Shown here: one piece after another, positions 419 through 3,321 of the stretch
How the letters are laid out: each line of letters begins with the position of its first letter
Numbering within the stretch: the first letter of the stretch is position 1
DNA from: Thioalkalivibrio sp. ALJ16
GTDB lineage: Bacteria > Pseudomonadota > Gammaproteobacteria > Ectothiorhodospirales > Ectothiorhodospiraceae
Length of the DNA stretch: 64,000 nucleotides
Assembly: GCF_000377345.1 (NCBI RefSeq)
Contig: NZ_KB898038.1
Span: 1-64,000 of the forward strand
Reading direction: 5' to 3'
Translations under genes and position numbers: made by a program
Notes under the pieces: model-generated
Seen by the model: only the letters and a program-made list of their open reading frames with translations
Databases searched by the model: none
Told to the model about the DNA's origin: nothing

Positions 419-1087
419 TCAAAGGGACGGACGCACCAGCAGCGGCACCACCCGAACCATAAACAGCGTCAGGCCGATCAGCGCCGCCAGCGCACCCGCC
501 GCCGTCAGCATCGCAACCCCCAGGATCCAGCCCAGGCCCATCCCCACCACAGCCAGATGCACCAGGATCTGTGGTGCCCAGGCCCACAGCCAGCCACCGG
601 CGATCGGGTGCCCGGTAAAGCGCGGCAGCATGTGCTCGCCCAGCCCCATGATCAGCAGCAGCAGAAAGCCCAGGGTAAAGCCGTGCAGCGCCGCCGGCCG
701 GGCCGCGCCCTCCAGGAAAAAGCCCCCCAGCGGCAGCGCCGCCCCCGCGATCAGCAGCCAGGCCATCGCCCCCAGCACCGAGGCCCGGCTGGAGGGCGAC
801 AGGCCCAGCCCTACATGCCGGGCCGCCTTCTGCGTACGCTCCGGGGCGGCGCCGACCAGTTCGGTGGCGGCCGTGCGATCCAGCAGACCGATGTGCTTGA
901 GCTCGCCATCGACCACCACGGCCGGAATGGACCGGATACGCAGCCGGGTGGCCAGCTCGCGGCCTTCCGGCTGGCCCATGTCGACCACCGCGAAGTCGAT
1001 CTGTCTGGCCTCGGCCACCTGACGCCAGATGCGCTCGGCATCGTGGCAGGAGGCGCACCATTCGGACACCAGCAGTTCCACCTTCAT
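419..1087 (-). CDS. thioredoxin-fold domain fused to a four-helix membrane domain
   Basis: 222 residues. Residues 1-75 form a thioredoxin/glutaredoxin-like fold with a C11-A-S-C14 redox motif and the expected cis-proline near residue 55 (SIPAVVVDG). Residues 104-218 form about four membrane helices carrying the signature LHG...LGF...MGLGEHMLPRFTG, with H135 and H152 as candidate heme or metal ligands. The same signature occurs in the protein at 1557-1955, so the two membrane domains are homologous. The start at 1087 is chosen for its GGGGAG ribosome site; a longer frame to 1147 would overlap the upstream gene. It is last in a three-gene operon behind an FNR-type box. A role in thiol redox coupled to an electron-transfer or NO-related membrane protein is inferred. 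Confidence 0.8.
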   Translation of the reverse strand: MKVELLVSEWCASCHDAERIWRQVAEARQIDFAVVDMGQPEGRELATRLRIRSIPAVVVDGELKHIGLLDRTAATELVGAAPERTQKAARHVGLGLSPSSRASVLGAMAWLLIAGAALPLGGFFLEGAARPAALHGFTLGFLLLLIMGLGEHMLPRFTGHPIAGGWLWAWAPQILVHLAVVGMGLGWILGVAMLTAAGALAALIGLTLFMVRVVPLLVRPSL

Positions 1088-1101
1088 GAGTCCGTCTCCC
1101 C

Positions 1102-1554
1102 TCAATCCGCGCAGCGCATGCAGTGGATGTCGTAACGGTCGATCCATTGCTTCAGACCGGTGATCGCCTCGGGCCCGGTGTGCAGCCGCTCCAGTGCCTT
1201 CTGCGGGTCGTCCGGGCGCATCACCACTACCCAGGCGTCGGTATAGGGCGCAACGTTCACCAACCCCGGGTCGGCCTCCACCGCGGGGTTAATCCGCTCG
1301 ATGGTGCCGTCGAACGGGGTTGGAATCCCGCCCGCCCACTTGCCGGACTCCAGCCGCGCCACCGGCTTGCCCGCCGCGCGGTGCGAACCCGGCTTGCGAA
1401 AACGGAAGTACTGCACACGGCCCGCCATGGTCTGCGCCGGATCGGTGATCCCGAGGGTGAAGGTGCCGTCGTCCTCCGGCCGCACCCAGACGTAGTCCAG
1501 GTCGTAGAACAGGTCGTCCGGCAGCTCGCAGCCGTTGTATTCCTCGCGTGCCAT
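1102..1554 (-). CDS. GcvH/LbpA-like lipoyl carrier protein
   Basis: 150 residues with the hammerhead lipoyl-domain pattern of glycine cleavage H protein. The lipoylation site is preserved (ARLESGKWAG, K72), followed by PTPFDGTIERIN and a C-terminal CMRC. The ESGKW form resembles the GcvH-like carriers of sulfur-oxidising heterodisulfide-reductase systems (LbpA) more than canonical GcvH, but no hdr or gcvTP genes are nearby. An AAGGGGG ribosome site precedes the ATG, and only two bases separate it from the upstream membrane-protein gene, so the two are surely co-transcribed. Lipoylation and an electron or acyl carrier role are inferred. Confidence 0.75.
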   Translation of the reverse strand: MAREEYNGCELPDDLFYDLDYVWVRPEDDGTFTLGITDPAQTMAGRVQYFRFRKPGSHRAAGKPVARLESGKWAGGIPTPFDGTIERINPAVEADPGLVNVAPYTDAWVVVMRPDDPQKALERLHTGPEAITGLKQWIDRYDIHCMRCAD

Positions 1555-1556
1555 GG

Positions 1557-1955
1557 TTATGCCCCCTTCGGTCCATAGTGGCGCACGGTCAGTGCGATGT
1601 TCACGGCGAACAGGATCATCGCCCCCCAGGCCAGCGCGCCTCCCACCGCGACCGTCGCGTTATGGAAGACCAGCCAGCCGGCGACCATCACCCACAGCCC
1701 GATGTTGGCCAGCAGGAACTGCGCATGCCCCAGGCGTTCGGAGAACAGGGAGCGCCCGGAGAAGCGCGGCAGCACATGCAGCCCCACGCCATAGATCATC
1801 ATGGTCACGAAGCCCAGCAGCATCAGGTGGCCGTGGATGCGCGGCACATTGCCCGGGATCAGGCCAGGATGCACCAGCCAGAGGATGCCGAGCAGCCCGC
1901 CCAGCAGGGCATAGACCAGGGCCGCGAGGATGAACATTCGGTTTCGAGGGTGCAT
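1557..1955 (-). CDS. small heme-copper-oxidase/NnrS-like membrane protein
   Basis: 132 residues and about four membrane helices. It contains RIHGH (H41, H43), then LLGFVTMMIYGVGLHVLPRF with H60. The pattern resembles the helices around the heme ligands of cbb3-type oxidase subunit I or NnrS-like proteins, but the protein is only one quarter of their length. Start 1955 is chosen for the AAGGAG site six bases upstream. It is first in the operon 1955 to 419, with a -10 TATGCT and a perfect FNR box upstream. It may bind heme and take part in NO or oxygen-limited respiration. This is inference: no cytochrome partner is adjacent. Confidence 0.7.
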   Translation of the reverse strand: MHPRNRMFILAALVYALLGGLLGILWLVHPGLIPGNVPRIHGHLMLLGFVTMMIYGVGLHVLPRFSGRSLFSERLGHAQFLLANIGLWVMVAGWLVFHNATVAVGGALAWGAMILFAVNIALTVRHYGPKGA

Positions 1956-1981
1956 GCAGGGCTCCTTGGCGGCTTTCACTC

Positions 1982-2024
1982 AGCATACTTTAAGATATAT
2001 TTCCTATGCATTGATTGAGATCAA
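1982..2024 (-). promoter_or_regulatory. FNR/ANR-type box and class II promoter of the leftward operon
   Basis: TTGATTGAGATCAA at 2011-2024 matches the FNR/ANR/DNR consensus TTGAT-N4-ATCAA perfectly. On the minus strand a TATGCT -10 lies at 1987-1982, 23 bases beyond the box. That is the spacing expected when the activator binds at -41.5. The box sits midway between divergent starts (1955 and 2088) and a weaker TAACAG lies on the plus side, so it may control both operons. Which regulator of the family binds cannot be told from sequence. Confidence 0.8.
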
Positions 2025-2087
2025 CACCCGGCCCCGTCCGTTCGGTAACAGTCTCCTTAAGGAATAACCACCAAGGCCGCAACCGCG

Positions 2088-2630
2088 ATGCACCTACAAC
2101 TCCATGAGACCGTCCCCGGATTCCAGCAGCCTGTCGAGCTGCTGCGCGCCTGTCACCGGCGCATCCTCAACTCTCTGGACATCCTCGATCGTCTGCCCGC
2201 GCACCTCGCCGAAAAGGGCGCCGACGAAGAGGCACGCACCGCGGCAGCCCGGGTCCTGAAATACTTTCACGAGGCCGCCCCCAATCATCACGCCGACGAA
2301 GACGAGGACCTGTTCCCCCTCCTCCGTCGGCATTGCGGCCATCCCGACAGCCACCCCCAACTGTGCGACTGGCTGGAGCGCCTGACCGCGGAACATGCCG
2401 ATATCGAGGCCGGCTGGGACCGGCTGGAACCGACCCTGCAACGGATTGCCGACGGCACCATCGCCGAACTGACCGACGCGGAGGACTGGATCCGGCAATA
2501 CCGCGTGCATCTCGATCTGGAAGAGCGGGCCGTGCTGCCATTCGCAGAGCACCTTCTGAGCCCGGAGGAGCGCCACACCATCGGTGCCCGCATGGCCGCG
2601 CGACGCGGGATCGGGAGCGACAATGGCTGA
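2088..2630 (+). CDS. hemerythrin-domain protein
   Basis: 180 residues, a single HHE cation-binding four-helix bundle. Candidate di-iron ligands follow the family order: H23 (ACHRRI), H61 and H67 (YFHEAAPNHHADEDEDLFP), H103 (EHADIE), H141 and E145 (HLDLEERAVLP). There is no signal peptide, so it is cytoplasmic. Such proteins bind oxygen or NO, or act in iron-centre protection. It is the first gene right of the FNR box and its last eight bases overlap the next hemerythrin gene, so both are translated together. The context favours a nitrosative or low-oxygen role, not proven here. Confidence 0.85.
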   Translation: MHLQLHETVPGFQQPVELLRACHRRILNSLDILDRLPAHLAEKGADEEARTAAARVLKYFHEAAPNHHADEDEDLFPLLRRHCGHPDSHPQLCDWLERLTAEHADIEAGWDRLEPTLQRIADGTIAELTDAEDWIRQYRVHLDLEERAVLPFAEHLLSPEERHTIGARMAARRGIGSDNG

Positions 2631-3321
2631 CTTCCGGCTCGATCTGCGCGGCCTGGGCGACCATGCCCATACACGCGCCTATTACACCCTCCGCGAACTG
2701 CGACCGGGGCAGATCTTCGAGGTATGGCTGGACCAGGAGCCGAAGCTCCTGATGGACGCGGTCAGCCTGCAGTTGCGTCACGCCATCCACTGGCAGGGTC
2801 TCGAAAACGGGCCACCGCTGTGGAAGCTCGCGGTGCAGCGCCGCGAGGACGTCGCCCCGGTGGATCTGGTCGACCTGCTGGAGCGCGACCACCTGCGCAT
2901 CGACCGCCTGTTCGCCAGCGCTCTGCACAAGGTGAACGCCGGCGATCTCGAGGGGGCCGCACCGGATTTCCACGCCTACGTGGATGGCCTGCGCCGCCAC
3001 GTGGAGGTGGAAAACGAACTGATCGTGCCACTGCTGGACCTGCCGCGCAGCCCGAACGGCCAGGACCCGACGTCGATCATGCTGCGCGAGCACGACGAGA
3101 TCCTGGAACAGACCGCGATGCTGGAGCATGAATTCAGCGAAGGGGTCGACGAGGCCTGGACTGTGGCCCCGTTCTTCGCCCTGATCTCCGGCGCGCTGGC
3201 CAAGCACGAGGGCCGCGAGGAGCAGAATCTGTTCCCGCACTGGAGCCGCGCCCTGCGCGAACAACCGGACGCCGCTGCCGAACTCCTGGAGCGTGCGCAG
3301 ACCCGACTCGCAGCCTCCTGA
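2623..3321 (+). CDS. DUF2249-hemerythrin fusion protein
   Basis: 232 residues. Residues 1-70 match DUF2249 (DFRLDLRGLGDHAHTR...LRPGQIFEVWLDQEP), a small domain often near denitrification and NO-response genes. Residues 85-225 form a second HHE hemerythrin domain with ligands in LLERDHLRIDRLF, RRHVEVENELIVP, LREHDEILEQ and KHEGREEQNLFP. The ATG at 2623 with a GGGAG site is preferred to a GTG at 2584. The gene overlaps its upstream neighbour by eight bases. The pair probably works together in sensing or scavenging NO or oxygen. Confidence 0.82.
   Translation: MADFRLDLRGLGDHAHTRAYYTLRELRPGQIFEVWLDQEPKLLMDAVSLQLRHAIHWQGLENGPPLWKLAVQRREDVAPVDLVDLLERDHLRIDRLFASALHKVNAGDLEGAAPDFHAYVDGLRRHVEVENELIVPLLDLPRSPNGQDPTSIMLREHDEILEQTAMLEHEFSEGVDEAWTVAPFFALISGALAKHEGREEQNLFPHWSRALREQPDAAAELLERAQTRLAAS

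Follow-up and report, generated by a model that had tools for sequence, protein, structure and literature searches.

The first 64,000 nucleotides of contig NZ_KB898038.1 of Thioalkalivibrio sp. ALJ16 (GCF_000377345.1; positions 1-64,000, here called the window) carry, at 419-3321, five genes in two divergent operons with an FNR box between them. Window position 1 is also the start of the contig (C2), so this genome gives no sequence to the left of it. The minus-strand operon comprises mem, lip and trx. The mem gene (1557-1955) encodes a four-transmembrane (4-TM), single-repeat homologue of haem-copper oxidase subunit I. It is followed by lip (1102-1554), encoding an LbpA-family lipoyl carrier with K72 in an ESGKW motif, an N-terminal C9 and a C-terminal CMRC, for which we coined the label LbpA3 in this analysis, and by trx (419-1087), whose product joins a thioredoxin domain of cytoplasmic type (residues 1-78, with WCASC) to a C-terminal 4-TM domain (about residues 98-218). 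The plus-strand operon comprises hr1 (2088-2630), encoding a hemerythrin-domain protein, and hr2 (2623-3321), encoding DUF2249 plus hemerythrin, whose start overlaps the end of hr1. Two start sites in a preliminary description of this DNA had to be moved: homologues place that of trx at 1087 and not at the longer open reading frame start at 1147, and that of mem was corrected to the ATG at 1955 (MHPRNR, conserved in homologues).

The FNR box, TTGATTGAGATCAA (2011-2024), is perfect and is the sole match with at most one mismatch in the 64 kb (0.27 expected). The whole 2.76-Mb genome holds six perfect sites, and none of the reversed control pattern. A leftward -10 element, TATGCT (1982-1987, minus strand), lies 23 nt from the box, a spacing kept in relatives, and places the box at -41.5. 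A TTGATN4ATCAA box at this position together with a -10 is the class II FNR configuration for the lip operon. Judged by sequence, the two divergent operons have one FNR box between them, placed relative to the lip operon as in class II promoters, in agreement with what the preliminary description had claimed for both the box and the leftward -10. The rightward -10-like element (AACAGT, 2047-2052, plus strand; rA(C/A)AGT across homologues) is about the same distance from the box (22 nt); it is weaker by sequence and is retained in most Thioalkalivibrio homologues. A simple sigma-70 scan found no promoter at the locus, which is expected of an activator-dependent promoter without a -35 element. 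Across genomes, the box (at most one mismatch, central bases varied) was present at 21 of 26 lip-operon promoters, compared with 0.2 expected from shuffles, although these loci were not evenly drawn and the shuffle expectation ignores relatedness. When the count is confined to evenly drawn loci whose upstream region could be read, 15 of 18 had the box. Some strains also have an NsrR-like candidate half-site, AAATATATCTT, between the FNR box and mem.

A single regulator of the genome scored above the Fnr cut-off (258 bits versus 228, NF008365), and its cysteines (C9-x2-C12-x5-C18 plus C110) match the canonical four-Cys arrangement, predicting an O2-sensing type. Of the other FNR boxes in the genome, one precedes ccoNOPQ and another a CCP/MauG-type di-haem peroxidase gene. 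NorB is absent: a COX1 model search of the genome matched CcoN and mem alone. Since the only Fnr is of the canonical four-Cys type, NorB is lacking, and ccoNOPQ and the di-haem peroxidase gene have boxes too, low O2 is better supported than nitric oxide (NO) as the signal in this genome. Of the earlier suggestion of a response to NO or low oxygen, the low-oxygen part is thus favoured, and NO enters only through neighbouring genes in relatives. A denitrification-only reading for this genome was rejected for want of NorB. Further perfect boxes of the same genome lie near SoxB-like 5'-nucleotidase, PEBP-family and DUF302 genes (L126 4875; L125 4755; L128 4650).

The lip product scored 102.6 bits against Pfam GCV_H and fell below the curated NCBIfam GcvH cut-offs (95.0 versus 117 and 78.6 versus 115.85). 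It was rejected as a bona fide GcvH on these scores; the genome's own gcvH is a separate gene on contig C5. Across 17 lip homologues K72 was invariant within ES(G/S)KW, as were C9 and C145, plus C148 of the terminal CMRC. Two conserved cysteines near the N- and C-termini, not present in GcvH, are a hallmark of LbpA (PMC6067878). In a tree that took in gammaproteobacterial GcvH and LbpA only, LbpA1, LbpA2 and LbpA3 together split from GcvH (support 100/100), and LbpA3 was monophyletic (98/97) and sister to LbpA1 (98/94). In this tree, lip is a third LbpA clade, with a putatively modifiable lysine and N- and C-terminal cysteines. A profile of the clade separated LbpA3 (at least 232 bits) from other LbpA proteins (at most 153 bits). 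The shdr cluster, with LbpA1, LbpA2 and the ligase sLpl, is on contig C12 and lip is on C2, so lip is not hdr-linked. The LbpA set of 2018 was chosen by proximity to hdr genes (PMC6067878), and unlinked members such as LbpA3 would therefore have been left out of it.

The two membrane proteins of the operon are related. The trx product scored 36.4 bits against Pfam Thioredoxin_3 (cut-off 24.8), and both C11/C14 of its WCASC motif and H135 and H152 of its 4-TM domain were invariant in 19 homologues. Its AlphaFold model (predicted local distance difference test, pLDDT, 87.9) combines a thioredoxin fold with four long helices. Searched by sequence, solved structures returned thioredoxins only, and a structure search with the model gave useful matches to the thioredoxin domain alone, again to thioredoxins in PDB. 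The protein thus has the CxxC site, the fold and the above-cut-off Pfam score of a thioredoxin. For mem, the COX1 score was 25.6 bits (cut-off 34.8) and the match to Pfam NnrS was weak (15.2 versus 28). It was rejected as a full haem-copper oxidase subunit I, having four helices and not 12 and a COX1 score below cut-off, and as an NnrS member on the latter score. H41, H43 and H60 of mem were invariant in the homologue alignment. The mem profile matched the genome's own CcoN three times, once per four-helix repeat, with the HxH of mem (H41-x-H43) aligned to the HVH of CcoN at the repeat 3 position. Histidines of CcoN act as haem or metal ligands, and in all three of its repeats the homology to mem takes in these metal-ligand histidines. 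The profile likewise detected three repeats in large membrane proteins besides CcoN (L051, L049, L118), against a background of no more than about 6 bits in unrelated proteins. The mem model (pLDDT 86.5) has four long helices, and its best PDB matches were mostly cbb3 oxidases, NO reductases and other haem-copper oxidases, all at E > 0.01; a sequence search of solved structures gave no match.

Sequence comparison identified mem and the C-terminal transmembrane domain of trx as paralogues. On that comparison they are homologous 4-TM units, each equivalent to one repeat of haem-copper oxidase subunit I, and haem binding by them is plausible. The preliminary description had proposed a thioredoxin-membrane fusion and a separate putative haem membrane protein. 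The fusion stands, with the addition that its membrane part is a paralogue of the separate protein; the latter gains homology to a haem-copper oxidase repeat, with a COX1 match that stays sub-threshold.

Both hemerythrins scored well above the Pfam Hemerythrin cut-off of 25.3 (hr1, 61.3 bits; hr2, 55.0 bits), and hr2 scored 33.9 bits for DUF2249. Together with the Pfam scores for the thioredoxin and the lipoyl carrier, this bears out the four domain assignments made earlier. When aligned with 14 other neighbouring hemerythrins, hr1 and hr2 kept the His and HxxxE pattern, leaving their di-iron ligand sets intact, and they are the only hemerythrins of the genome. Iron-centre repair by a YtfE/RIC protein was rejected (18.4 and 20.9 versus a curated cut-off of 204.7). 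A further domain, DUF1971 (L112 6768-7643; L046 4898-5293), is fused to hemerythrin in genome G055 and is found near a Crp/Fnr gene and the mem-lip-trx triad in Sulfuriferula, which suggests that it is another member of this gene context.

We examined co-occurrence across the class in an evenly drawn set of 369 genomes. LbpA3 was present in 18, from 11 gammaproteobacterial families. All 18 had the matching thioredoxin (found in 22 genomes overall; Fisher P = 4e-27) and 16 had the sHdr-type LbpA2 (34 genomes overall; P = 7.5e-17), where both Fisher values treat genomes as independent though they are related. The two LbpA3 genomes without LbpA2 are fragmented or incomplete assemblies, which still have sLpl. 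The link to lipoyl or thiol redox drawn in the preliminary description is strengthened by a carrier that falls in an LbpA clade and is found with sHdr. With one genome from a phylum sample added, 19 LbpA3 genomes were compared. LbpA proteins are characteristically lipoylated by sLpl and not by the canonical ligase, and the sLpl gene was found in 19/19. A hemerythrin lay within 5 kb of lip in 14, and beside an unlinked trx in two more; the baseline for this linkage is the own-genome count only (two hemerythrins, both at the locus). Thus, across these genomes LbpA3 is, as judged by homology, always accompanied by a particular CxxC thioredoxin and usually by hemerythrins. The triad, or lip with thioredoxin and hemerythrin, or both, also occurs in Sulfuriferula and other proteobacterial metagenome-assembled genomes (MAGs). 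The neighbours are therefore conserved well beyond this strain, as the earlier description had asked of related genomes, and chance co-location was rejected.

This linkage bears on one alternative, namely that the hemerythrins are Mhr-like O2 binders that aid microoxic cbb3 respiration and have nothing in common with the thiol operon but the FNR box. P. aeruginosa Mhr is Anr-regulated, has submicromolar O2 affinity and is epistatic to cbb3 (PMC12403760), and in ALJ16 FNR boxes stand at both the hemerythrins and ccoNOPQ. In strain ALJ17 (L062 5980-6200), all that is left of mem-lip-trx is a scar in which lip 113-150 follows mem 1-43, with both hemerythrins intact next to a perfect FNR box, so there the hemerythrins persist without their neighbours. 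However, promoter sharing by chance does not explain why 14 of the 19 genomes have hemerythrin linked with lip and trx, in several arrangements that include a single operon. We consider this alternative improbable.

The module takes two forms. In the membrane architecture, mem-lip-trx, the thioredoxin bears the 4-TM domain; in the soluble architecture, a free thioredoxin (about 80-120 residues) stands with lip and hemerythrin, with no transmembrane unit. Transmembrane unit and hemerythrin thus interchange as the partner of lip and thioredoxin. Membrane-form carriers make up a supported subclade (98/97) within LbpA3, and since they are nested there the soluble form may be the older, the tree leaving the root of the clade unsettled. 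Near lip, L117 has a gene with a lipoate-ligase domain, and in L121 a gene for a dihydrolipoyl-dehydrogenase-like flavoprotein lies beside trx and hemerythrin. The MAG FK4.bin111 has two copies of the triad (L043 231-6614; L045 5992-7646), one of them beside DsrC/TusE, narK-like and narG genes. Free-standing thioredoxin-domain homologues without lip occur near Crp/Fnr genes (L113 4895-5158; L119 4589-4819; L123 4874-5110), and in L113 and L119 they are divergent from the Crp/Fnr gene and beside molybdenum-cofactor genes. In Gemmatimonadota, mem-like 4-TM genes occur as tandem pairs that diverge from a Crp/Fnr gene (L049 5995-6858; L053 5998-6892) and adjoin DUF2249 or, by eye, copper nitrite-reductase-like genes.

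The strongest rival explanation is a dihydrolipoyl:quinone branch of sHdr. LbpA3 would be an alternative sHdr carrier at low O2, passing electrons or sulfane sulfur from sHdr to the membrane thioredoxin and haem-like 4-TM protein and on to the quinone pool, as a dihydrolipoyl:quinone oxidoreductase, and the hemerythrins would be separate O2 handlers. LbpA3 is sister to the LbpA1 of sHdr and nearly confined to sHdr genomes, DsrC/TusE-family genes adjoin the module in L105 and L043, and a haem-copper-oxidase-like domain suggests electron transfer at the membrane. Yet the soluble architecture keeps lip, thioredoxin and hemerythrin together without any membrane partner, and LbpA3 is absent from about half of the sampled sHdr genomes (18/34). 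On balance we regard this rival as possible but doubtful.

Neighbouring genes in relatives introduce NO. A Crp/Fnr-family gene lies near lip in nine of the 19 LbpA3 genomes, and the regulators next to the module in relatives are not Fnr. The module adjoins hmp and an NsrR-like repressor gene in T. halophilus (L042), NnrS in L105 and narG in L043, and a related transmembrane unit lies beside cytochrome d1 in L118 and, by eye, copper nitrite-reductase-like genes in L053 and L060. DUF2249 proteins are linked to nitrate respiration in Thermus (DrpA/DrpB, PMC6282519) and Haloferax (PMC11218638). Such neighbours, the divergent regulators other than Fnr and the DUF2249 connection would fit an NO-defence accessory of denitrification, in which dihydrolipoyl-LbpA3 and thioredoxin denitrosylate thiols and feed an NO-reducing hemerythrin or haem. 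We judge this unlikely, more so than the quinone branch: the ALJ16 genome has no NorB, its sole candidate for binding the box is the O2-sensing Fnr, and the majority of Thioalkalivibrio strains have been described as obligately aerobic (PMC6382920).

Our preferred reading, held tentatively and at a little under even confidence, sees in the locus a redox module of sHdr sulfur oxidisers under FNR control, a low-O2 thiol relay running from lipoyl-LbpA3 through thioredoxin to haem or di-iron. Falling O2 would lead Fnr to turn on both operons. LbpA3, lipoylated by sLpl and LipS1-S2, would be reduced at its dihydrolipoyl arm by sHdr or a dihydrolipoamide dehydrogenase and would in turn reduce the CxxC of the thioredoxin. 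Electrons would pass in the membrane form to haem held by assembled 4-TM units, and in the soluble form to the di-iron site of hemerythrin. These centres might reduce or scavenge O2 or NO and so shield, where oxic meets anoxic conditions, the Fe-S and lipoyl enzymes that carry out sulfur oxidation in the cytoplasm. Lipoylation, the direction of electron flow, haem binding, the substrate and the joint action of the five products are the parts of this scheme that we infer.

Several observations weigh against it. The box is absent at the T. halophilus locus (L042), L043, G191, G297 and G314, and genomes G156, G270 and G226 had no hemerythrin in the DNA examined (the G226 region being incomplete). 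As ALJ17 lacks mem-lip-trx and has both hemerythrins, the two operons are separable. The L121 flavoprotein scored under the curated dihydrolipoyl dehydrogenase cut-off, no dihydrolipoamide dehydrogenase gene was found in the readable part of the ALJ16 locus, and the genome lacks NorB. One 4-TM unit alone cannot form a haem-copper site, and no single chain has a copper ligand set. A more specific version of the thiol relay, which we advance as speculation, is that lipoylated LbpA3, via membrane-bound thioredoxin, drives a haem centre built of separate single-repeat 4-TM units of haem-copper-oxidase fold, with hemerythrin substituting in soluble versions, so that sulfur oxidation by sHdr is coupled to O2 or NO and the whole is controlled by an Fnr/Dnr-type regulator.

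Close to the window start, positions 1-300 hold a dispersed repeat resembling a miniature inverted-repeat transposable element, with perfect 30-nt inverted ends (7-36 and 259-288). An identical 275-bp copy opens contig C10, and diverged copies occur at other Thioalkalivibrio loci, including in T. halophilus. This repeat is probably the reason for the contig break.

Among known systems, the M. tuberculosis Lpd-DlaT-AhpD-AhpC peroxide and peroxynitrite reductase likewise runs from a lipoyl protein through a thioredoxin-like CxxC adaptor to an enzyme that consumes reactive species. The proposed relay would resemble it by analogy of working only, as carrier, adaptor and terminal protein all differ. 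The HxH of mem is in register with the haem-ligand region of CcoN (repeat 3). Unlike the haem-copper oxidase subunits CcoN and NorB, and unlike NnrS, mem has four transmembrane helices (one repeat) and not 12, falls short of the Pfam cut-offs for COX1 and NnrS, and has a copy fused to thioredoxin. The carrier itself is closest to the LbpA lipoate-binding proteins of the sHdr pathway (Cao 2018, PMC6067878; Tanabe 2023, PMC10332631), with which it shares the ESGKW-type lysine, the N- and C-terminal cysteines, the wider clade, and genomes that carry LbpA2 and sLpl. It differs in its separate clade, its position away from the shdr cluster, its CMRC end, its thioredoxin, hemerythrin and 4-TM partners, and its FNR-type box. 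P. aeruginosa Mhr is likewise a hemerythrin under FNR/Anr-type control alongside cbb3 oxidase; the present locus differs in having two hemerythrins, of which one bears DUF2249, and in their linkage to a lipoyl carrier and a thioredoxin. The DUF2249 proteins of nitrate respiration share that domain, but hr2 fuses it to hemerythrin in a genome without NorB.

In the literature searched, which lacked most subscription journals, we found no description of LbpA joined with hemerythrin, and "LbpA3" as a term gave unrelated matches only. Taken singly the domains are known, but these papers yielded no account of the clade, of the pairing or of the single-repeat membrane units. The gene grouping across unrelated sulfur oxidisers points to an undescribed low-oxygen, possibly NO, redox system. 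The lipoyl carriers on which sHdr sulfur oxidation depends do not yet have settled redox partners. Concrete, testable partner proteins are offered by a third clade of carriers that is associated with one specific thioredoxin and with metalloproteins of the O2/NO type. Free-standing single repeats of the haem-copper-oxidase fold, if they bind haem, would bear on the origin of the 12-helix oxidase by triplication. The module also suggests how sulfur oxidisers may cope with low O2 or NO.

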